Positions 22,246-32,633 of a stretch of DNA of 64,000 nt are shown here, piece after piece. The notes under the pieces were generated by a model. The model did no database searches. It was not told where the DNA came from and saw only the letters and a program-made list of their open reading frames with translations. The position numbers and the translations under genes are program-made. Source of the stretch: Leucobacter sp. cx-328 (GTDB lineage: Bacteria > Actinomycetota > Actinomycetes > Actinomycetales > Microbacteriaceae); NCBI RefSeq assembly GCF_014530035.1, contig NZ_JACVMX010000003.1, positions 1 through 64,000 of the forward strand. Reading direction: 5' to 3'. The first letter of the stretch is position 1; every line of letters starts with the position of its first letter.

Positions 22246-23229
22246 ATGCTCGCGACGCTACTTATTGGAATGCGTGAGGGGCTCGAAGCGGCGCTAGTGG
22301 TGAGCGTACTGCTCGCTTACGTCAACAAGATCGGTCGCCGAGATGCAGCTCGGAAGATTTGGTTTGGTGTTGGCGCAGCGATCCTGCTGTCGCTCATCGT
22401 CGGTGCTGTGCTGACGTACGGGGCTTACGGCCTCTCGTTTGTGGCGCAGGAGGCAATTGGTGGCACCTTGTCGCTCGTTGCCGTCGCAATGGTCACCTGG
22501 ATGGTGTTTTGGATGCTGCGGATGTCGCGGGGCTTGAGTGGTCAGCTCCGCGACCAGCTCGACAAAGCACTGTTGGGCGGCGGTTGGGGAGTTGCCGCGG
22601 TAGCGTTCATCTCCGTTGCCCGCGAGGGTATCGAGACCGCGCTCTTTATCTGGGCCACTACCCGCGCGAGCGACACGACTCCGCTCGTTGGCTTTCTGTC
22701 AGCAATCTCAGGCATCGTCATCGCCGCGGTACTCGGCTGGGCGCTCTACCGCGGGCTCCTCGTGATCAACCTCACGGTGTTCTTCCGCTGGAGTGGCGTC
22801 CTGCTCATTATCTTCGCTGCGGGCGTGCTTGCGTATGGCGTGCATGACCTGCAGGAAGCCGGGCTTCTGCCCGGGCCGTTCATGCCAGTACCTCTGAGTG
22901 CAGGACCCGTGATGGCGACCTGGTTTGGTGAGGCTGCCTGGGCCTTCCAGATCTCGCACGTCATCGCGCCAGACGGGTTCTTGGGTGTCCTGTTGAAGGG
23001 CACAATTGGTTTCTCGCCCGAGATGACCAAACTCGAGGTACTGGCATGGGCCACCTATCTCATCGTTGTTCTCCCGCTCTTCCTGATGCGCTCGTACCGT
23101 TCGTCGAAGCCTGCGGCGCAGACCCCGGATATTTCGGTGCCGGAAAAGCAAGGGGAGTCAGCGGCGGCTTACGCCGGCCAGACCTCAGCGCCAGCGAAGT
23201 CGTGCACCGGCGCTGATCCGCGCTCGTAA
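22246..23229 (+). CDS. efeU: EfeU, FTR1-family iron permease
   Basis: Membrane channel for iron import in the EfeUOB system. 327 residues with seven hydrophobic segments. The two iron-binding REXXE motifs are present: REGLE at 10-14 in the first helix and REGIE at about 126-130. The C-terminal 60 residues are hydrophilic and Pro/Ala-rich. It is first of efeU-efeO-efeB, 29 bases before efeO. An iron-repressor box upstream suggests expression under iron starvation. Confidence 0.92.
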   Translation: MLATLLIGMREGLEAALVVSVLLAYVNKIGRRDAARKIWFGVGAAILLSLIVGAVLTYGAYGLSFVAQEAIGGTLSLVAVAMVTWMVFWMLRMSRGLSGQLRDQLDKALLGGGWGVAAVAFISVAREGIETALFIWATTRASDTTPLVGFLSAISGIVIAAVLGWALYRGLLVINLTVFFRWSGVLLIIFAAGVLAYGVHDLQEAGLLPGPFMPVPLSAGPVMATWFGEAAWAFQISHVIAPDGFLGVLLKGTIGFSPEMTKLEVLAWATYLIVVLPLFLMRSYRSSKPAAQTPDISVPEKQGESAAAYAGQTSAPAKSCTGADPRS

Positions 23230-23258
23230 TTTTCCCTCATGTCCTGAAAGGACCATCC

Positions 23259-24485
23259 GTGATTTCCACGCACACTCCCTCCACCCTTCGCCTGCTCGGC
23301 GCGGCAGGCGCCTGCGGCATCGCGACGCTCGCGCTTACCGGCTGCGTGCCGAACGGTGCAGCCGACGCGACCACCATCGCGGTTGCGGCGTCAGACGACG
23401 GCTGCTCGGTGTCGACTCCGTCCGCTGATGCAGGCACCATCACGTTCCAGGTGGCGAACTCCGGCACCAAGGTGAACGAGTTCTACGTTCTCGGCAGCAA
23501 CGAGCTCACGATCGTCGGCGAGGTGGAGAACATCGCTCCAGGTACGACCCGCGAGCTGACGATCCAGGTGGGGGCAGGTGACTACTTCACGAGCTGCAAG
23601 CCCGGCATGATCGGTGCGGGTGTCGGCCAGGCGGCATTCACCGTCAGCGGTGACGCGGTAAGCGCCTCGCCTGAGGAAGAGGCAGTTATTGCGCAATATG
23701 TCGCGTACGTGAAGACGCAAACCGAAGAGCTCGTTCCCGAGGTGCAGGCGTTTGTCGACGCGTACAAGGCTGGCAATGATGATGAGGCGCGCGCGCTGTT
23801 CCCAATCGCGCGCATTAATTACGAGCGGATCGAACCGACAGCAGAGCAGTTCGGCGACCTGGACCCGAAGATTGACTACCGCAAACCGGGCGCGATCGAG
23901 GAAGGCCTTGAATTCACCGGCTTCCATCGCATCGAGCAAGATCTGTGGCTCGAACGTGCCATCGAAAACTACTCGCAGCCCGAGAAAAACCACTACCCGA
24001 AGGACGACCTCGTCGCGCTGACCCCTGAGCAGCGTGCTGAGATCGGCGATCAGCTCGTTGCGGACGTCACCGAACTCAAGGACAAGGTTGCAAGCCCTGA
24101 GTTCACGCTCACCCTTGCAGACATCACTGAGGGCGCGAAGGGCCTGCTCGACGAGGTAGCTGCACCTGATGGCAAGCTGCCTGGTGAAGAGAATGAGTTT
24201 GCACACACTGACCTCTACGATTTCGTTGCAAACGTTGAGGGTGCCCAGGTGGCATTCGACACTGTTCGACCCCTGCTCGTCGCGAACGGTGGCGAGGAGC
24301 TCGCGACCGAACTCGACGCCCGTTTCGCTGACATGTTCGAGCTGCTCGCAACCTATGGTTCGTTCGATGCAGGATTCGTCTCGTATGACACGGTTGATGC
24401 TTCGCAGCGCAACGAGCTGGCGGCAAAGCTCACCGCGCTGAGCGAGCCGATGTCGCGCCTGACCGCTGGCGTCGTCTCGGCTTAA
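23259..24485 (+). CDS. efeO: EfeO, iron-binding lipoprotein (cupredoxin + M75)
   Basis: Extracytoplasmic iron-binding partner of EfeU. 408 residues: lipoprotein signal ending in the lipobox LTGC (Cys29), a cupredoxin-like domain (about 40-135), and an imelysin/M75 domain carrying the HxxE motif HRIEQD (His223). The two-domain form is the full-length EfeO type rather than the short EfeM type. Start GTG 23259 follows GAAAGGA. Lipid anchoring would keep it at the membrane surface beside EfeU. Confidence 0.92.
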   Translation: MISTHTPSTLRLLGAAGACGIATLALTGCVPNGAADATTIAVAASDDGCSVSTPSADAGTITFQVANSGTKVNEFYVLGSNELTIVGEVENIAPGTTRELTIQVGAGDYFTSCKPGMIGAGVGQAAFTVSGDAVSASPEEEAVIAQYVAYVKTQTEELVPEVQAFVDAYKAGNDDEARALFPIARINYERIEPTAEQFGDLDPKIDYRKPGAIEEGLEFTGFHRIEQDLWLERAIENYSQPEKNHYPKDDLVALTPEQRAEIGDQLVADVTELKDKVASPEFTLTLADITEGAKGLLDEVAAPDGKLPGEENEFAHTDLYDFVANVEGAQVAFDTVRPLLVANGGEELATELDARFADMFELLATYGSFDAGFVSYDTVDASQRNELAAKLTALSEPMSRLTAGVVSA

Positions 24486-24518
24486 GGCCGGCACAACCAG
24501 AGGTGTAGCTAGGTATCC

Positions 24519-25946
24519 ATGTTTTCCGACGACGCCACCACTCCCATCCCAACCGATCCCGCTGATTTGTCAGTCCCCACAGCGCCACAGGGTCGACAGC
24601 AGCGCAATTCGCACTCCGAAGATGCAGGCGACCCCGACCGGTCAGTCCAGAGTTCCTCCCTGGCTCGTCCGTCGCGTCGCGGTCTCTTCGGACTCCTCGG
24701 CGCTGGTGCCGCGGGGCTTGCGCTGGGTGGCGTCGCCGGAAATGCTCTCCAGCGGGGGCGCGGATCAACCGCAGCCCTCGCGCAGGCAACCGTAGACTTT
24801 GGCGGCCCCCACCAAGCTGGCATCGTCACACCCGCGCAAGACCGCCTGCACTTCGCCGCGTTCGCAATGAACACGGGCACAACGCGCGACGACCTCATCT
24901 CGTTGTTGCGTGATTGGACCACTGCGGCGAGCGCGCTCTCACGCGGTGAAGAGGTGGGTGAAGGGATGGAACCCGGGAACGCGCTTTTGCCGCCTGATGA
25001 CACTGGTGAGGCGACGGGCCTTGGCCCTGGAAATTTGACGCTCACCTTCGGGTTCGGGCGTTCCCTGTTTGTGGGCGGTGAGCGCAGCGGCACCGGCACG
25101 GTGAGCTCTGAGGCTGACCCGTTCGGCATTCGCGACCAGTTACCTAAGCAGTTTGAGCCGCTGCCTTCGTTCGCTTTTGACCTGCTCGATGCCACGCAGA
25201 GTGGCGGTGATCTGTGTGTACAGGCGTGCAGCGATGACCCGCAAATTGCTGTGCATGCGATCCGCAATTTGGCGCGGATCGCCACAGGCCGTGCGCATCT
25301 TGCCTGGAGTCAGTTAGGGTTCGGTCGCACAGCGTCGACATCGCTTGAACAAGACACCCCCCGAAATCTTTTTGGCTTCAAGGACGGCACCGCCAATGTC
25401 ATGGCGGAGGAGACCGAGGAGCTTGCCAACCACGTGTGGGTTGGAAGCGAAGCGCCCGAGTGGCTTCGGGGAGGTTCGTATCTTGTCGCTCGGAAGATTC
25501 AGATGACCATTGAGACGTGGGATCGCGCAAACCTGGCGGAGCAGGAGCGCATCTTTGGGCGCACGAAGCGAGAGGGCGCGCCGCTTACCAGTGCTCATGA
25601 GTTCGATACACCTGACTTCGACGCGATGGATCACGCTGCTGGAAGCCCGAAGATCGACATGGCGGCACATGTGCGGCTCGCGCATCCCGTACGCAACGGG
25701 GGAGTCCGCCTACTTCGCCGCGGTTACAACTATGTTGATGGATCGAATTCGCTTGGTCAGCTCAATGCTGGGCTGTTCTTCATCTCGTTCCAGCGGGACC
25801 CTGAAAGCTTCGTGCGGGTGCAGCAATCCCTGAAGAGTGATTTGCTGAATGAGTACATTCGCCATATCGGCTCAGGTCTGTGGGCCGTTCCGCGCGGGCT
25901 TGAACGGGGTGGTGACGAGTTCATCGGTCAGGCGTTGTTTGAGTAA
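24519..25946 (+). CDS. efeB: EfeB, Tat-exported DyP-type peroxidase
   Basis: Heme peroxidase of the dye-decolorising family, proposed to oxidise ferrous iron or handle heme for EfeUO. 475 residues. A long Tat signal peptide has the twin arginines at 53-54 (PSRRGLFGLLGAGAAG). The DyP signature GFKDG is at about 286-290 with catalytic Asp289, and a conserved His near 384 (AAHVRL) is the likely heme ligand. It ends the three-gene operon. Confidence 0.93.
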   Translation: MFSDDATTPIPTDPADLSVPTAPQGRQQRNSHSEDAGDPDRSVQSSSLARPSRRGLFGLLGAGAAGLALGGVAGNALQRGRGSTAALAQATVDFGGPHQAGIVTPAQDRLHFAAFAMNTGTTRDDLISLLRDWTTAASALSRGEEVGEGMEPGNALLPPDDTGEATGLGPGNLTLTFGFGRSLFVGGERSGTGTVSSEADPFGIRDQLPKQFEPLPSFAFDLLDATQSGGDLCVQACSDDPQIAVHAIRNLARIATGRAHLAWSQLGFGRTASTSLEQDTPRNLFGFKDGTANVMAEETEELANHVWVGSEAPEWLRGGSYLVARKIQMTIETWDRANLAEQERIFGRTKREGAPLTSAHEFDTPDFDAMDHAAGSPKIDMAAHVRLAHPVRNGGVRLLRRGYNYVDGSNSLGQLNAGLFFISFQRDPESFVRVQQSLKSDLLNEYIRHIGSGLWAVPRGLERGGDEFIGQALFE

Positions 25947-25993: not shown

Positions 25994-26013
25994 CCTAACT
26001 AACATTAGTTAGG
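25994..26013. promoter_or_regulatory. Operator palindrome of the TetR regulator
   Basis: CCTAACTAA and TTAGTTAGG are perfect reverse complements separated by CA. The palindrome ends nine bases before the GTG start of the TetR gene, so binding would repress the whole operon. Confidence 0.8.
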
Positions 26014-26021
26014 CGGTTATC

Positions 26022-26627
26022 GTGGCAGAGACACGCTCACGCATCCTCAGTGCGGCATTGCTTCGCTTCGCACAGTCGGATTACACCTCGACGTCCCTCA
26101 AAGACATCGCAGCGGATGTTGGCATCAAAGCGCCATCGATCTACGCACACTTTACGAGCAAAGAAGAACTCTATGCAGAGGTCTATATGCGCTCAATCGG
26201 TGACCACCGAGACTACTTCACCACTCGTATCGGCGATGCCACAGCGCTCGAACCGATTGAGCGGCTCCACCAACTGTTCACTGGCGTGCGCGATTTCTAC
26301 CGTTCACGTCCAGAACTCCTTGAATTTCACCTGAGCACCGCACTCGGACACAATCGAGCGAAGGCGCCAGGCATGGCCGACACATTCCAAGTTTGGGATG
26401 CGGATTTGTCGGCAGCCGTCCGAGAGGCATATCTCGAGGGCGTTGCGCGGGGGCAGTTCACGAGCCTGCCACCCGAGGCCTTTACATCCCACTTCATGTG
26501 CCTCCTGGATGGACTCTTCCTCCAGATGGGCCACTATCCGTCTGCGCTTTTTGATGCGCACCTCACTCAGACATGGGATGTCTTCGTGCAGTTCCTTACT
26601 GCGCACGTATCCCAGGAGAGCTCGTAA
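26022..26627 (+). CDS. TetR-family regulator of the hydantoin-type operon
   Basis: 201 residues with the family N-terminal helix-turn-helix (about 1-60: TSLKDIAADVGIKAPSIYAH) and a variable ligand-binding C-terminal domain. Start is GTG 26022, directly behind a perfect 20-base palindrome that is its probable operator. Its TAA overlaps the permease ATG (TAATG), so regulator and transporter are coupled. The ligand is presumably the substrate or an intermediate of the pathway encoded downstream. Confidence 0.88.
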   Translation: MAETRSRILSAALLRFAQSDYTSTSLKDIAADVGIKAPSIYAHFTSKEELYAEVYMRSIGDHRDYFTTRIGDATALEPIERLHQLFTGVRDFYRSRPELLEFHLSTALGHNRAKAPGMADTFQVWDADLSAAVREAYLEGVARGQFTSLPPEAFTSHFMCLLDGLFLQMGHYPSALFDAHLTQTWDVFVQFLTAHVSQESS

Positions 26628-28018
26628 TGTCTCACACCACTGAACCGCCGTCCGCGAACGCGCCTGTCGCCGCACCGACCGAAAAGGCCCGCTCCGACTA
26701 CGAGCTTGGCACCGTCCCTGCCGCGGAGCGCAAGGGCTGGCTCCCGATCGCTGGCATCTGGATCGCGATCGGTATCGATCTGTCGGGCACCATCATGGGC
26801 GTCTCGCTCGGCAGCGGATTGCCCTTCGGTGATGCGCTCGCTGCGACCATCCTCGGTTCTGTACTGCTTGGCCTGCTGGCTATGGCGTGCACCTATGTTG
26901 GTGCCGCAACCGGCCTCACGAGCGCAATGCTCTCGCGCGCAGTCTTCGGTCGCGTTGGTGGCCTCGTCATCGCCGTCGCGATGGCGATCTCCTCGCTCGG
27001 TTGGTTCGGCGTGCAGACCGGCTTCTTTGCCGACAATGCGCGGATCGCATTCGACGAGCTCTTCGGCATGAGCGTGCCCGTGCAGGTGTTCACAGTCATC
27101 GGCGGTGCGCTCATGATCCTCACCGCACTCTGGGGCTACCGCTCGATTCAGCGCCTGAGTTCGTGGGCCGTGCCCCTGCTGATCGCGCTGCTCTCACTCG
27201 CGGTCATCATGGCGTTCATGCAGTTCGGCACCGGAGACCTGTTCAAGGACGTCGCTCCTGCGTTCAGCTTTGGCGGCGCGGTCTCGCTCGTCATGGGCAT
27301 CTTCGTGTTTGGCGTCATCGTATCGCCCGACATTGCGCGCTGGGCGAAGACTCCGAAGCGGGCAATGGCTGCTGGTTTTGTTGGCTTCTTCATCGGTAAC
27401 TCGCTCATTGTGATCGTGTCCCTCGTACTCTCGCGCGTGATGGGTACAGAAGACTTCATGCGCATGTTCTTCATGCTCGGCCTCGGTGGCGTCGCGATCG
27501 TTGTGCTGACCCTCGCGCAGTGGACCACGAACACGAACAACCTCTATTCGGCAGCACTCAACCTATCGGCAGTGTTCCCGAAGGTCAGCCGTCGCTCGCT
27601 CACGCTCATCGGTGGTGTTGTTGCAATTGCCGCCGCGCTCGCTGGTATCTACGACGCGTTCATCCCCTTCATTTCGCTCATGGGTACGTTCATCGCACCC
27701 TACGGCGGCGTGTACCTCGCTGACTTCTTCACGAACGTGAAGGGTCGCCTTCGTGCCGGGAGCACCGATGTTCCGAAGGTTGATGCATGGGCGTTTGTCG
27801 CCTGGGGTATTGGCTGCGTTGCCGGCCTGCTCACCACGAGCCCGAACGATGGCTTCGGGATCGGCGTCATGACCATCACCACGATTCCTGCACTCGACGC
27901 GATCCTTGTTGCGTTCGCAGCGCACATGGTCATTGGCTGGGTGCGTCGAGCAGCTGGCTCGAAGGCTACGACCACGCCTGCACTCGTGGGTGCACAGACC
28001 GAAGGAGCTGAAGGTTGA
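26627..28018 (+). CDS. NCS1-family cytosine/purine/hydantoin permease
   Basis: Polytopic transporter of the nucleobase:cation symporter-1 family, 463 residues with about 12 hydrophobic helices. It begins with a hydrophilic N-terminus that includes DYELGTVPAAERKGW, and GVSLGSGLPFGDAL follows in the first helix region. Best similarity in shape is to CodB. NCS1 also contains Mhp1, the hydantoin transporter of a Microbacterium, and the neighbours make a hydantoin-like substrate attractive. Start ATG 26627; the upstream in-frame ATG at 26573 lies inside the TetR gene. Confidence 0.85.
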   Translation: MSHTTEPPSANAPVAAPTEKARSDYELGTVPAAERKGWLPIAGIWIAIGIDLSGTIMGVSLGSGLPFGDALAATILGSVLLGLLAMACTYVGAATGLTSAMLSRAVFGRVGGLVIAVAMAISSLGWFGVQTGFFADNARIAFDELFGMSVPVQVFTVIGGALMILTALWGYRSIQRLSSWAVPLLIALLSLAVIMAFMQFGTGDLFKDVAPAFSFGGAVSLVMGIFVFGVIVSPDIARWAKTPKRAMAAGFVGFFIGNSLIVIVSLVLSRVMGTEDFMRMFFMLGLGGVAIVVLTLAQWTTNTNNLYSAALNLSAVFPKVSRRSLTLIGGVVAIAAALAGIYDAFIPFISLMGTFIAPYGGVYLADFFTNVKGRLRAGSTDVPKVDAWAFVAWGIGCVAGLLTTSPNDGFGIGVMTITTIPALDAILVAFAAHMVIGWVRRAAGSKATTTPALVGAQTEGAEG

Positions 28019-29133
28019 GCACTGATCACCTCACCGTCATCACCGAAGCTGATATCGACGACATCGCCATTGGTGCTGCGGTACTCGGTACCGGCGGCGG
28101 CGGCGACCCACATGTCGGATCCCTGCACGCGAAGCGTGCGATCCGCCTCCACGGCGAGGTTCCCGTACTGCAGGTCGCCGATCTCGACGACGAGGGGCTC
28201 GTTGTTCCTGTCGGCATGATTGGCGCCCCGTCAGTGTCTATTGAGAAGATTGCTGGCGCAAACGAGCTCAGCCGCGCGCTCGACATGCTCGAGCAGGGGA
28301 CCGGCAAGCGTATCGCCGCCATCATGCCGATCGAAATCGGCGGCGGCAACTCGCTGATCCCCATCGCCGCAGCTGCAGAGCGTGGCCTGCCGATCGTTGA
28401 CGGTGACGCAATGGGGCGTGCGTTCCCCGAGGCGCAAATGGTGACATTCCACCTCGCCGGTTATGGCCCCGGCGCGACAGTTCTCGTGGACGCGCAAGGC
28501 AACGCCGTACTGTCGTACCCGATCAATGGGGCGTGGTCGGAGCGCCTGGCGCGCGTCATCACGTTCGAGATGGGCGGATCCGCCACCATGATTGATTACG
28601 CCTATCCCGGCGCCGTCGCACGCGAGTGCGCTATTCCTGGCACACTGACGATGGCGCGTGACATTGGCCGCATGCTCCGCAGCTCGGAGCTGCGCGATGA
28701 CGAGCGTACCGACGCAATGCTCGAAAAGCTTGGTGGGTACCGTCTCTTCATGGGCAAGGTGACCGAGATCGAACGCGCGGTGCAGGGGGGCTTCACCCGC
28801 GGTCGGGCTGAGCTCGCTGGCACGGGCGCTGACCGTGGCGACACCTTCGAACTGAGCTTCCAAAACGAAATGCTCCTGGCGCAGCGCAACGGCGACCTTG
28901 CTGCGGTGACCCCGGATCTCATCGCAGTGCTCGATCAGGCCACCGGTCACCCGATTACGACTGAGACCCTGCGGTATGGCGCACGCGTCACGATTGTTGC
29001 GTTCCCGTGCCACCCGCAGTGGCGCACCGCACGCGGCATCGAGACCGCTGGCCCCGGCTACTTCGGCTACGAGGTTGAATTCACGCCCGTGGAAACGTTG
29101 ATGGCAGCAACCACCGAGGAGGCACACGCATGA
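28015..29133 (+). CDS. DUF917 family protein (S-methylthiohydantoin desulfurase-like)
   Basis: 372 residues, full length for DUF917, with the glycine-rich opening AAVLGTGGGGDPHVGS and the IEIGGGNSLIP and DGDAMGRAFPE motifs typical of the family. From memory, Pfam now names this fold after an S-methylthiohydantoin desulfurase; other members are uncharacterised. It starts at a TTG overlapping the permease stop (TTGA) and ends overlapping the next gene (ATGA), so the four genes are tightly coupled. The expected role is processing of a (thio)hydantoin or related cyclic amide taken up by the permease. Substrate is inferred from context. Confidence 0.8.
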   Translation: MSTDHLTVITEADIDDIAIGAAVLGTGGGGDPHVGSLHAKRAIRLHGEVPVLQVADLDDEGLVVPVGMIGAPSVSIEKIAGANELSRALDMLEQGTGKRIAAIMPIEIGGGNSLIPIAAAAERGLPIVDGDAMGRAFPEAQMVTFHLAGYGPGATVLVDAQGNAVLSYPINGAWSERLARVITFEMGGSATMIDYAYPGAVARECAIPGTLTMARDIGRMLRSSELRDDERTDAMLEKLGGYRLFMGKVTEIERAVQGGFTRGRAELAGTGADRGDTFELSFQNEMLLAQRNGDLAAVTPDLIAVLDQATGHPITTETLRYGARVTIVAFPCHPQWRTARGIETAGPGYFGYEVEFTPVETLMAATTEEAHA

Positions 29134-30689
29134 GCTACCGAATTGGTATCGATGTCGGAGGCACGAACACCGACGCCATCGTTCTCGATGCGGAGCGTCG
29201 AGTAATTGCATCGGTAAAGACCCCAACTCGGGCGCAGTCGGGAGACGGTGTCGCCCGCGCGATTGACCTCGTGCTCGAGGCATCCAGTATTCCCAGTAGC
29301 GAGGTGCGCTCGGCAATGCTTGGCACCACGCACTGCACGAATGCAATCGTCGAGCGCAAGGGCCTCGGCAAAGTTGGAGTGCTCCGCCTTGGTGGGCCAG
29401 CAACGAGTGCCGTGCCACCGTTCGAAGGCTGGCCCGCTGACCTGCAAGCTGCTGTTGAGGGGCCGTCGTTCATCATCGCCGGCGGCAATGAGTTTGATGG
29501 CCGCGAGATTAGTGCACTCGATGAGGCCGGAATCCGTGAGGCTGCTGCAGCCATGCGAGGCAAAGTTGACGCGATCGCAATCGTTGGCGTCTTCTCGCCC
29601 GTCGCGACGGCGCACGAGCACCGCGCAGCTGAGATTGTGGCGGAAATCATTGATGTTCCCATCTCAAAGTCGGTGGAGATCGGCTCGATCGGCCTGCTCG
29701 AACGCGAGAACGCGACCATTCTCAACGCTGCGCTGATCCGCACCCTTGGCGACATGGCCGCCGGCTTCGAGCGCTCGCTTGCCGAGCACGGTATCGACGC
29801 AGACATCTACTTCGGTCAGAACGACGGCACGCTCATGCGTCTCGCGTACGCGCTGAAGTACCCGGTCTTCACAATCGGGTGTGGGCCGACGAACTCGATC
29901 CGCGGTGCGGCGCACCTCTCGGGAGTCTCAGACGCACTCGTCGTTGACATCGGAGGTACCACGACCGACATCGGCGTGCTGGTCGATGGTTTCCCACGTC
30001 AGTCGGCGCACGCGGCAGAGATCGGTGGAATTCGCACGAACTTCCGGATGCCTGACGTGCTCTCGGTTGGCCTCGGTGGCGGCACGATCGTGCGCGGCCT
30101 CGGCGCAAACGGCACCGGCGCAGGCGACCCCATGAAGCTCGGACCCGACAGTGTCGGGTACCGCATCGCGAGCGAAGCGCTCGTCTTCGGCGGATCAACC
30201 GTCACCGCAACCGATATCGCCGTTGCAGTGGGTCGCCTTGAGATCGCTGATGGCCAGGCTCCTGAGCTGCCAGCAGACGTCATCACTGCTGCCGATCAGG
30301 CGATCCGCGAAGTCATTGAAGAAGCAATCGATCAGATAAAGCCGAGCGCGGCACCCGTGCCCATCGTGCTCGTCGGTGGCGGCGCCGCGATCTCGCCGAC
30401 AGCCCTCGCTGGCGTTTCAGAGGTCATTCGCACCGAGCACTCGAGCGCGGCAAACGCAGTTGGTGCGGCGCTCGGGGACGTAGCCGGTCAGGCCGAGCGC
30501 GTGTTCTCACTGCGTGAGATGACTCGCCAGGAGGCGGTCGCGCACGTGCGTGACGACGCGATTGCGCGTGCGGTTGCGGCGGGCGCGGATCCTGACACCG
30601 TCGAGGTTCTTTCACTTGAAGAGTTGCCCGTCGCCTACATGGAGGACACAGTCATCGTCCGCGCTCGCGCGGCCGGTCGCCTCGCATAG
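29130..30689 (+). CDS. Hydantoinase A / oxoprolinase-type ATPase
   Basis: 519 residues of the HyuA class, the actin-like ATPase half of ATP-dependent hydantoinases and 5-oxoprolinases. It has the phosphate-binding motifs GIDVGGTNTD (6-15) and DIGGTTTDIG (273-282). The GTTHCTNAIVERKG and GLGGGT segments also fit. It is shorter than full HyuA (about 680-700), and no HyuB partner follows, so the DUF917 protein may be its functional partner. Last gene of the TetR operon. Confidence 0.85.
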   Translation: MSYRIGIDVGGTNTDAIVLDAERRVIASVKTPTRAQSGDGVARAIDLVLEASSIPSSEVRSAMLGTTHCTNAIVERKGLGKVGVLRLGGPATSAVPPFEGWPADLQAAVEGPSFIIAGGNEFDGREISALDEAGIREAAAAMRGKVDAIAIVGVFSPVATAHEHRAAEIVAEIIDVPISKSVEIGSIGLLERENATILNAALIRTLGDMAAGFERSLAEHGIDADIYFGQNDGTLMRLAYALKYPVFTIGCGPTNSIRGAAHLSGVSDALVVDIGGTTTDIGVLVDGFPRQSAHAAEIGGIRTNFRMPDVLSVGLGGGTIVRGLGANGTGAGDPMKLGPDSVGYRIASEALVFGGSTVTATDIAVAVGRLEIADGQAPELPADVITAADQAIREVIEEAIDQIKPSAAPVPIVLVGGGAAISPTALAGVSEVIRTEHSSAANAVGAALGDVAGQAERVFSLREMTRQEAVAHVRDDAIARAVAAGADPDTVEVLSLEELPVAYMEDTVIVRARAAGRLA

Positions 30690-30730
30690 TTTCGCACTGA
30701 CGCCGCCCTGCGGTGACGCGCAAGACATAC

Positions 30731-30768
30731 GGCCCGCTCCACACCTCAGTGTGGAGCGGGCCGATTTG
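30731..30768 (+). terminator. Terminator of the DUF917-HyuA operon
   Basis: GGCCCGCTCCACAC and GTGTGGAGCGGGCC form a perfect 14-bp stem with a CTCA loop. The T-tract after it is weak. Confidence 0.8.
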
Positions 30769-30823: not shown

Positions 30824-30858
30824 ATTTACATAGTCAAGCTATGTAAATCTGATACACT
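30824..30858 (+). promoter_or_regulatory. MarR operator and -10 element
   Basis: ATTTACATAG (30824-30833) and CTATGTAAAT (30839-30848) are exact reverse complements across five bases. TACACT at 30853-30858 is a good -10 only eight bases before the GTG, implying a leaderless mRNA. The palindrome covers the region upstream of the -10, as expected for autorepression. Confidence 0.75.
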
Positions 30859-30865
30859 GCATGCT

Positions 30866-31312
30866 GTGACCAAAACTTCTGCTGCTGAACGCGAGGCGCT
30901 TGAGGCGCTCGCCCTTGAATTTATTGTTTCCGCTGCGCGATTGACGCGCGTCGTTGGAAAGAAGTCAGGCTCGGCGTATTCCTCGAATGCGTGGCGAGTG
31001 CTTTCCGATCTTGAGCGCCACGGCGCGCAGCGCGTGAGCGATCTCGCGCAACAGCAAAATGTCGCACAACCCACCATGACAGCGCTTATGCAGCGGCTCG
31101 GCAGCGAGGGGTGGGTGACGCGCGAGCCCGATCCAACGGACGGACGCGCGACACTGGTCACCATTACGTCACGCGGCGCTCAGGCCCTCGCCGACTACCG
31201 CACCAATGCGGCAGCCGTGCTGGTTCCGCACCTTGCCGACCTGCCCAGCGATGATCAGGTGACGCTCCTCCGGGCGGCAGAAATCATGCACCGAATCGTC
31301 GAAGTCGCGTAA
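30866..31312 (+). CDS. MarR-family regulator
   Basis: 148 residues with a winged helix-turn-helix (HGAQRVSDLAQQQNVAQPTM and the DPTDGRATLVTIT wing). I start at GTG 30866, directly behind the -10 and palindrome. In-frame starts further upstream would cross the operator. It sits 31 bases ahead of the MFS transporter gene and probably represses both until an efflux substrate binds. Confidence 0.88.
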   Translation: MTKTSAAEREALEALALEFIVSAARLTRVVGKKSGSAYSSNAWRVLSDLERHGAQRVSDLAQQQNVAQPTMTALMQRLGSEGWVTREPDPTDGRATLVTITSRGAQALADYRTNAAAVLVPHLADLPSDDQVTLLRAAEIMHRIVEVA

Positions 31313-31343: not shown

Positions 31344-32633
31344 ACGAATACTGAGACTCCACCCAAAGCTTCACTCTGGCGACAGCCGACCGCCGTCTGG
31401 GCAATCGCGTTTGCATGTGCGATCTCATTCATGGGCATCGGTCTCGTCGACCCGATCCTCCCCGCGATTAGCCATGAACTTGGCGCATCACCCAGTCAAA
31501 CCATGCTCCTCTTCACGAGCTATCTGTTTGTCACCGGCGTCGCAATGCTCTTCACAAGCTGGGTCTCAGGCCGCCTCGGTGTTCGCTGGACCCTCGTTAT
31601 CGGGCTCATCCTCGTTGTGATCTTCGCGGCGCTCGCCGGTTCCGCTGGTTCGGTCGACGCAATTATCGGGTTCCGCGCGGGATGGGGTCTCGGTAACGCG
31701 CTCTTCATCTCAACCGCACTTGCGGCAATCGTTGGCGCAGCCTCTGGCGGATCACGCCAGGCCATCGTGCTGTACGAGGCTGCGCTCGGTGTTGGCATGG
31801 CGGTTGGCCCACTCGTTGGCGGTGCGCTCGGCTCCATCTCGTGGCGCGGGCCGTTCTTTGGCACCGCGGCGCTGATGGCGGTTGCGCTCGTGGCGATCCT
31901 CGTGTTCCTGAATTCGCCCAAGCAGCCGGCCGCGCAAGCGGTAGCGGTACCAGTGGGGGAGCAGCCCTCGCTGTTTTCCAGCTTCCGCGCGCTGCGCAAC
32001 CCCGCGCTCCGATCGCTCGCGCTCGTTGCAGTGTTCTACAACTTCGGCTTCTTCGTACTGTTGGCATACAGCCCGTACCCGATGGAGGCGGCCGCGAAGC
32101 TCGCTGGCGCCCAATCATTCGGCGCGCACGAGCTCGGCTTCGTCTTCTTCGGTTGGGGCGTTGCTCTCGCACTTACGTCCGTGTTGGTTGCGCCGGTACT
32201 CACACGACGGTTCGGACTCGCGACCGTGCTCTTCGTGATGCTTGGTGGCCTCACCGTGTGCCTCATGTTGCTCGGGGTGTTTGTAAACTCCCTCACTGGA
32301 CTCGTGGTCGTCGTCGTTGTGAGCGGATTGCTCCTTGGTGTGATTAACACCGCGCTCACGGAAGCGGTGATGGAAGCCACTGACCTCCCGCGCAATGTGG
32401 CGTCATCGACCTACTCAGGGGTGCGATTTATTGGTGGTGCGATCGCCCCAGCGGTAGCCGGACCCATTGCGGCAGCATTCGGGGCACCGGTGCCCTACTG
32501 GGTCGGGGCCACAGCAGTGCTCATTGCGATTCTGGTGTTGGCCTTCTCTCATAAGCGACTTGCTCCCATTGGTGCAGAGCATCGCAACCCGGTTGCCGAA
32601 GCGGCAATCATCGGAGCAGGTGACGCGGCCTAA
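31344..32633 (+). CDS. MFS drug-efflux-type transporter, apparent ACG start
   Basis: Major-facilitator transporter of about 430 residues with 12 hydrophobic helices, likely a multidrug exporter under the preceding MarR regulator. The first ATG (31431) would cut helix 1 in half. Reading upstream in the same frame gives a normal N-terminus, NTETPPKASLWRQPTAVWAI, and the codon before it is ACG at 31344. A strong AAAGGA (31332-31337) lies six bases before that codon. No ATG, GTG or TTG exists in this frame between there and 31431. Either ACG initiates weakly or an ATG has mutated and the gene is crippled. Substrate unknown. Confidence 0.75.
   Translation, partial: TNTETPPKASLWRQPTAVWAIAFACAISFMGIGLVDPILPAISHELGASPSQTMLLFTSYLFVTGVAMLFTSWVSGRLGVRWTLVIGLILVVIFAALAGSAGSVDAIIGFRAGWGLGNALFISTALAAIVGAASGGSRQAIVLYEAALGVGMAVGPLVGGALGSISWRGPFFGTAALMAVALVAILVFLNSPKQPAAQAVAVPVGEQPSLFSSFRALRNPALRSLALVAVFYNFGFFVLLAYSPYPMEAAAKLAGAQSFGAHELGFVFFGWGVALALTSVLVAPVLTRRFGLATVLFVMLGGLTVCLMLLGVFVNSLTGLVVVVVVSGLLLGVINTALTEAVMEATDLPRNVASSTYSGVRFIGGAIAPAVAGPIAAAFGAPVPYWVGATAVLIAILVLAFSHKRLAPIGAEHRNPVAEAAIIGAGDAA

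Follow-up and report, generated by a model that had tools for sequence, protein, structure and literature searches.

A 64,000-nucleotide stretch of the Leucobacter sp. cx-328 genome (contig NZ_JACVMX010000003.1, positions 1 to 64,000, hereafter the window; the source genome comprises 2.64 Mb in 14 contigs) contains a plus-strand operon (26022–30689) of four genes, encoding a TetR-family regulator, an NCS1 permease, a DUF917 protein and a short HyuA, each overlapping the next. We consider it rather probable that this operon is a compact unit for uptake and ATP-dependent hydrolysis of a small cyclic amide, in which HyuA would activate the ring and DUF917 would replace HyuB. The HyuA–DUF917 partnership is well supported by gene order and gene fusion; the phosphorylation, the attack of water on the same carbon and the nature of the ring are what we infer. 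A preliminary description of this DNA had proposed four genes overlapping by their stop and start codons, and the open reading frames (ORFs), Pfam domains and overlaps are all as it claimed: the tetR TAA and ncs1 ATG meet at 26625–26629 (TAATG), the ncs1 TGA and DUF917 TTG at 28015–28018, and the DUF917 TGA and hyuA ATG at 29130–29133. The features are listed below, with protein lengths in amino acids (aa).

25994–26013, no strand: probable TetR operator, CCTAACTAA-CA-TTAGTTAGG (from the sequence; motif conserved before module tetR genes)
26022–26627, plus strand: TetR-family regulator, 201 aa, GTG start (Pfam TetR_N, 47.3 bits)
26627–28018, plus strand: NCS1 permease, 463 aa, CodB-like (Pfam Transp_cyt_pur, PF02133, 92.1 bits)
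28015–29133, plus strand: DUF917 protein, 372 aa, TTG start, proposed hydrolytic subunit (Pfam S-Me-THD_N and S-Me-THD_C)
29130–30689, plus strand: short HyuA ATPase, 519 aa, proposed phosphorylating subunit (Hydant_A_N, 135.6 bits; Hydantoinase_A, 108.6 bits)
30730–30763, no strand: 15-pair hairpin after hyuA, possible terminator with a weak T tail

We propose that (i) TetR would bind the CCTAACTAA-N-TTAGTTAGG operator and keep the operon repressed until it is released by a ligand, which is probably the substrate; (ii) the permease would import a small flat ring, held between Trp126 and Phe226, together with sodium; (iii) the short HyuA would phosphorylate the lactim oxygen of the ring amide, as its family suggests; and (iv) DUF917, sitting on HyuA in the place of HyuB, would add water to the activated carbon and the ring would open. 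Phosphorylation of the ring-amide lactim oxygen is what has been described for, or is expected of, the A subunits of 5-oxoprolinase, hydantoinase and caprolactamase, and thiohydantoin desulfurases, which are relatives of DUF917, act on a comparable activated ring carbon. An excerpt of PMC6061476 describes phosphorylation and hydrolysis as split between A and B subunits. A literature search covering the titles and abstract starts of open-licence papers returned no experimental study of a HyuA–DUF917 pair.

Fusions, models and domains of the HyuA–DUF917 pair

We searched for natural fusions with a query that joins the two window proteins and is long enough to exclude single proteins of their size. 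Of 7992 candidates scored, 658 reached E 1e-10 or better, and all of the best 120 carry both HyuA domains and both DUF917 domains. HyuA comes first in 118 of these 120, which is the reverse of the window gene order; the DUF917-first order is found only in P0002 and P0003, both of which may be frameshift joins. The listed fusions include those of fungi (Aspergillus, Fusarium and Trichoderma), green algae, corals, sea urchin, sea cucumber, acorn worm, oyster and abalone, and several of the eukaryotic ones sit on contigs of tens of megabases. P0001, an apparently bacterial fusion of 906 aa, is encoded on a 3.3-kb metagenome contig. Those of P0004–P0120 that have names bear labels such as hydantoinase, DUF917-domain, hypothetical or uncharacterized protein.

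In the tree, P0001 groups with Paenarthrobacter (L078) at a support of 98 in the SH-like approximate likelihood ratio test (SH-aLRT). Of the other 23 fusions, 22 join Roseateles (L076; SH-aLRT 98) inside a separate clade (99). Because P0001 and these 22 fall in different supported clades, two or more independent fusion events have probably occurred. We also modelled fused chains. With paired rows, a fused relative gave one confident two-domain arrangement with a predicted template modelling score (pTM) of 0.91; a second model (P0002, with the opposite order and unpaired rows) reached a pTM of 0.81 and a predicted local distance difference test score (pLDDT) of 83.8. The pTM expected without a fixed domain arrangement is estimated at 0.62–0.69.

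The DUF917 protein belongs to the S-Me-THD-like family (PF06032 and PF20906, matched at 182.8 and 215 bits against a gathering score of 27), which has a solved relative in CV_3147 (PDB 2o3i). Eight of its residues (E107, D129, D131, R135, E176, R180, N284 and E285) are conserved at 95% or more among both 82 bacterial and 115 fused rows, and the part of CV_3147 that aligns has the same residues. The preliminary description had reached a (thio)hydantoin substrate by way of the desulfurases of this family. That route is not supported: the window protein misses both NCBIfam equivalog cut-offs, with 99 bits against 450 for S-methyl thiohydantoin desulfurase (NF058532) and 65.9 bits against 440 for thiohydantoin desulfurase (NF058529). 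Both cut-offs were also missed by seven other DUF917 proteins scanned, and the distant DUF917 of locus L090 likewise scores below them. No S-methyl thiohydantoin desulfurase was found at E 1e-80 in 396 Actinomycetota genomes, an absence that is uninformative since the control genomes gave no match either. An excerpt of PMC11055893 reports DUF917 as enriched near cyclodipeptide oxidases, calls the family experimentally uncharacterised and suggests hydantoinases.

HyuA is indeed short, as had been stated, with 519 aa and no match to the C-terminal domain of its family. It matches Hydant_A_N and only positions 1–176 of the 291 of Hydantoinase_A, and its N-terminal and ATPase domains both score over the Pfam cut-offs, as expected of the HyuA/HyuB family. 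Hydant_A_C (PF19278) found no match in the window HyuA, two paired relatives or three fusions scanned; all three domains, Hydant_A_C among them, are present in the single full-length HyuA scanned from this genome (680 aa, HyuB-linked). Glycine-rich ATPase motifs around D8–D15, D273–T277 and GGG416–418 show a conservation of 95% or more in 76 bacterial as well as in 115 fused rows. Assignment to the caprolactamase alpha subunit (NF050156) was rejected at 94 bits against an equivalog cut-off of 1000.

Distribution of the module and clues to its substrate

One scan of a genome collection with the window DUF917 protein yielded 56 loci in Actinomycetota and Bacilli. The genes tetR, ncs1, DUF917 and hyuA keep the same order and strand in 52 of them. 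Among the exceptions, L042 lacks a tetR beside the trio, L025 starts at the edge of a contig, and two Brevibacillus loci have DUF917–hyuA without a permease gene, followed by a gene for an extracellular solute-binding protein (SBP_bac_5, scanned in L058). The closest of the loci fetched is that of Leucobacter sp. cx-42, where the operon is present with 93–97% protein identity.

Within the Microbacteriaceae, the family of the window genome, DUF917 is present at E 1e-60 or better in 40 of 299 genomes, seven of which (the window genome included) exceed 65% DUF917 identity. In a sample of the class, the Pfam DUF917 domain occurs in 13 of 118 genomes, and relatives are found on 129 plasmid records. 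Because of this patchy distribution and the plasmid-borne relatives, the module looks like an accessory trait that moves. Of 21 plasmid regions read, 20 are annotated, and HyuA adjoins DUF917 in 19 of these; the 19 include eight with a cytosine-permease-type gene and nine with an ABC importer nearby. Clustering of flanking ORFs in 57 regions brought out no additional gene family that exceeds 14 regions, a weak result because the ORF picker was crude and recovered even the four core genes in only 38–50 of the 57; the 14-region family consists of ABC-type ATPases (one member scanned).

Several loci have unusual arrangements. Brevibacillus fluminis (L058:5343-10635) carries two tandem DUF917–hyuA pairs, one of them very divergent (a long branch), with the SBP_bac_5 gene downstream. 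In L042:965-4985 a second hyuA–DUF917 pair lies on the other strand with a PucR-type regulator, adjoining the first module. A Streptomycetaceae plasmid (L067:8045-10682) has a second DUF917 gene without its own hyuA, beside OsmC and cysteine-synthase-like genes, neighbours that may point to sulfur chemistry. The insect symbionts Arsenophonus and Sodalis (L074 and L077) carry the permease, DUF917 and hyuA genes on plasmids of 59 and 27 kb, which suggests that these modules are used inside the host.

We then considered genes near the module that bear on its substrate. In L012, L013 and L020, tetR and the permease gene are separated by tandem genes of the Asp/Glu/hydantoin racemase family; in L042 such genes precede the permease gene (e.g. 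L012:5064-6598, L020:5000-6552 and L042:5101-6611). Because of these genes, a hydantoin-like or other small cyclic amide is a plausible substrate. The first racemase-family gene keeps two cysteines (L012, L020 and L042), which we take to be catalytic. Neither cysteine is left in the second gene, as inspected in L020, and its product may be a non-catalytic partner. NCBIfam gave no name over cut-off for the linked racemases. Other DUF917–hyuA pairs accompany ABC importers (several of them dipeptide-type), racemase-family or AroM proteins, and dipeptidases: an isoaspartyl peptidase and a dipeptidase follow a pair in L073, and L078 has a membrane dipeptidase. Together these neighbours suggest an amino-acid-derived cyclic amide. 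The substrate is probably a small, often chiral cyclic amide, e.g. a 5-substituted hydantoin or a small diketopiperazine, either of which would fit.

A narrower alternative keeps the same machine with another substrate: the pair would be an ATP-dependent hydrolase of small diketopiperazines, with the permease importing e.g. cyclo(Ala-Ala). We regard this as unlikely. It would account for the ABC importers that stand in for the permease in several loci and for the peptidases of L073 and L078. It also fits the overlap in genera, as an excerpt of PMC3852281, in which no gene is named, reports that strains of Microbacterium, Leifsonia, Bacillus, Paenibacillus and Rhizobium cleave diketopiperazines, and DUF917–hyuA pairs occur in Microbacterium, Bacillus and Rhizobium. 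However, the taxonomic match is coarse, being at genus level rather than between strain genomes, the window operon has no peptidase gene, and the pairs with linked peptidases lie outside the window's tree branch, those of L073 in another branch and that of L078 beside it (SH-aLRT 85).

HyuB, the permease and the remaining alternatives

The preliminary description held that HyuB is missing. This is correct for the operon but not for the genome, where another contig carries two hyuA/hyuB pairs. A tblastn search with the two HyuB proteins of the window genome found hyuB (PF02538) in two of 73 loci (the 56 loci plus 17 plasmid regions), and in both (L072 and L075) it pairs with a separate adjacent hydantoinase gene (692 aa in L072). 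When 39 module genomes, for which completeness is not given, were searched whole, 20 had no hyuB match and 19 had one. Thus hyuB is absent from about half of the module genomes rather than from all, as it is present in the 19 and in the window genome. A hyuB elsewhere in every module genome would have spoken against the partnership suggested in the preliminary description, and the outcome thus favours it. HyuB is dispensable for the module in the 20 genomes without it.

These counts bear on a reading in which DUF917 acts upstream as an enzyme of its own, either a desulfurase or a hydrolase, and the partner of HyuA is a HyuB from another place in the genome. The two hyuB genes of the window genome and those of the 19 module genomes would allow this, and the NCBIfam desulfurase names of DUF917 relatives are compatible with it, as is a distant DUF917 (28% identity; L090:5716-7307) that has a cupin gene and an ABC transporter as neighbours but no hyuA. 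On the other side are the 20 genomes without hyuB, the long hyuA neighbours that the hyuB genes of this genome have of their own, the absence from the short HyuA of the C-terminal domain seen in the HyuB-linked HyuA scanned, and the fusions to DUF917. We find this reading quite improbable. The role of DUF917 as catalytic partner of the short ATPase, raised in the preliminary description as a possibility, is well supported, though not proven, by the near-constant adjacency of the two genes, the hyuB-less genomes, the fusions and the fused-chain models.

Several points weigh against the proposed partnership and its use on a cyclic amide: (i) of the 81 DUF917 copies encoded in the loci, five lack an intact HyuA within 3 kb (in one case where the record ends), the L090 copy stands alone as noted, and the window operon itself contains no racemase or peptidase gene; (ii) the tree was a quick one with SH-aLRT supports in place of bootstrap, the fusion P0058 is a long branch of unsure placement, and a single fusion followed by later splits is an alternative to repeated fusion; and (iii) the structure models, scored by pTM and pLDDT, cover fused relatives in place of the window's own pair, and P0002 combines an apparent frameshift join near its middle with the lower pLDDT (83.8).

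The permease matches CodB (PDB 7qoa) at E 7.4e-38 and Mhp1 (2jln) at E 1.6e-8, so that the Mhp1 comparison made earlier is weak and CodB is by far the closer relative. The PF02133 match and two aromatic substrate-sandwich residues, Trp126 and Phe226, are as expected of NCS1 permeases. We compared 59 module permeases, that of the window included, with the CodB binding site. The aromatic, Asn and sodium-site residues of CodB are mostly kept: equivalents of Trp108 and Asn280 are present in 59/59, Phe204 in 54/59, and the sodium-site residues Thr278 and Thr279 in 51/59 and 53/59, respectively. Unlike in CodB, the position of Gln105 holds Gln in none of the 59 and Leu or Ser in 55 (Ser123 in the window), and that of Phe33 in transmembrane segment 1 (TM1) holds Asp in 53 (Asp51 in the window). 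The six permeases without this Asp all come from plasmid records, and the plasmid permeases of L063 and L065 have it. The acidic TM1 residue suggests a polar or amine-bearing substrate. The residue roles of CodB are taken from an excerpt of PMC9379551, which also reports that mutation of Gln105 strongly reduced cytosine transport. A cytosine carrier was rejected because of these binding-site residues, and membership of the CodB cytosine permeases fails at 234.3 bits against an equivalog cut-off of 326.

The same two positions (no Gln for Gln105, mostly Asp for Phe33) argue against a module that salvages a pyrimidine or purine breakdown product of the cytosine, uracil or allantoin type. Such a reading could draw on the 'cytosine permease' annotation in eight plasmid regions and on the PucR-type regulators of L063, L068 and L070, but the crude flanking-gene clustering, in which no additional family exceeded 14 of the 57 regions, speaks weakly against it as well, and we hold it to be very improbable. 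That the pair is an ATP-dependent carboxylase like acetone carboxylase, and not a hydrolase, is hardly credible: L072 and L075, with their separate hyuA/hyuB pairs, are the only loci with a HyuB-like subunit (no search was made for a gamma subunit), and the HyuA half also matches caprolactamase and N-methylhydantoinase, so that its fold does not decide the matter.

We also compared the module with known systems, taking structural relatives from VIA-align and Foldseek listings, in which the absence of other proteins carries no meaning. As in the HyuA/HyuB cyclic amidases (i.e. N-methylhydantoinase 7hk5/9h03, bacterial 5-oxoprolinase and caprolactamase 6yra), HyuA has the N-terminal and core ATPase domains with their conserved motifs, the ATPase is encoded in a tight operon with a second subunit, and both halves are fused in eukaryotes. 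By contrast, the module HyuA has no Hydant_A_C, and its partner is not HyuB but DUF917, a different Pfam family with a solved relative of its own (2o3i). Because Hydant_A_C and an adjacent HyuB were both looked for and not found, the pair is not a member of the HyuA/HyuB enzymes, although it probably works like them. It differs from the desulfurases (NF058532 and NF058529) and CV_3147 in that the module DUF917 is paired or fused with an ATPase. In Clostridioides difficile, CDR20291_1615–1617 are a consecutively numbered permease, DUF917 protein and hydantoinase, a likeness of annotation; an excerpt of PMC12915319 tabulates them together among genes changed in an hcpR study. The hyuA (ygeZ) of PMC4016543 was rejected as a relative, being described there as an amidohydrolase-type enzyme, which is a different family.

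More broadly, and tentatively, HyuA–DUF917 could represent a second, parallel class of ATP-dependent cyclic-amide hydrolases, present in bacteria and fused in fungi, green algae and marine animals, with substrates including small diketopiperazines or hydantoins. If true, many 'DUF917' and 'hydantoinase/oxoprolinase' proteins, from lactobacillus plasmids to corals and oysters, would be one enzyme, ATP-driven ring opening would gain a second kind of hydrolytic subunit, and it would be explained why the short HyuA is never seen paired with HyuB in the loci examined. In so compact a four-gene system, the substrate can be approached through TetR release, uptake and hydrolysis together.

The probable TetR operator and the surrounding sequence

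A perfect 20-base palindrome had been described in front of the operon. The inverted repeat is present (25994–26013, ending 8 bases before the tetR start codon) but it is not perfect, since its 9-base arms CCTAACTAA and TTAGTTAGG enclose an unpaired central CA and 18 of the 20 bases pair. Judged from the window alone, where nine inverted repeats with 9-base arms and a spacer of 0–4 occur compared with one to seven in six simulated windows, the palindrome is weak evidence. It becomes convincing as an operator because the motif is conserved upstream of the module tetR genes. CCTAAC-N4..8-GTTAGG, with at most two mismatches of 12, lies within ∼80 bases upstream of 51 of 52 such genes, and without mismatch before 34 of the 52 (Actinomycetota and Bacillota); the control frequency was 35 in 5200 random 90-mers from the same loci, some of which may include a real site. 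The complete CCTAACTAA-N-TTAGTTAGG is found again in Bacillota loci (L026, L028–L032 and L034) whose TetR proteins are only 26–29% identical to that of the window. In the nearest Leucobacter relatives (L007–L011) the outer CCTAAC...GTTAGG alone is palindromic and the inner left arm has changed. This footprint across phyla is the best evidence that TetR and the palindrome belong together. With a TetR_N domain (47.3 bits) and a conserved inverted repeat, the locus has what is expected of a TetR with its own palindromic operator, in agreement with the regulatory pair predicted in the preliminary description.

A promoter scan upstream of tetR gave no sigma-70-type site; a weak TTGTGG-17-TAAACT directly 5' of the operator was read by eye, not by the promoter scan. 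For the hairpin at 30730–30763, the scan gives a stem on the minus strand only and ATTT follows on the plus strand; the hairpin may end the operon transcript, its T tail being weak.

Elsewhere in the genome, two more NCS1 permeases (G000:C6:252709-257170) lie near aminotransferase and aldehyde dehydrogenase genes, and no link was found between the operon and other NCS1 permeases or racemase-family genes. Upstream of the operon, a Dyp peroxidase gene (24519–25946, by Pfam) belongs to a set of three genes (22246–25946) that resembles what we take to be the EfeUOB iron-uptake set. Downstream, a MarR gene (30866–31312) precedes an MFS transporter gene (31431–32633), and the inverted repeat ATTTACATAG-TCAAG-CTATGTAAAT at 30824–30848, just upstream of the MarR gene, is a possible MarR operator.

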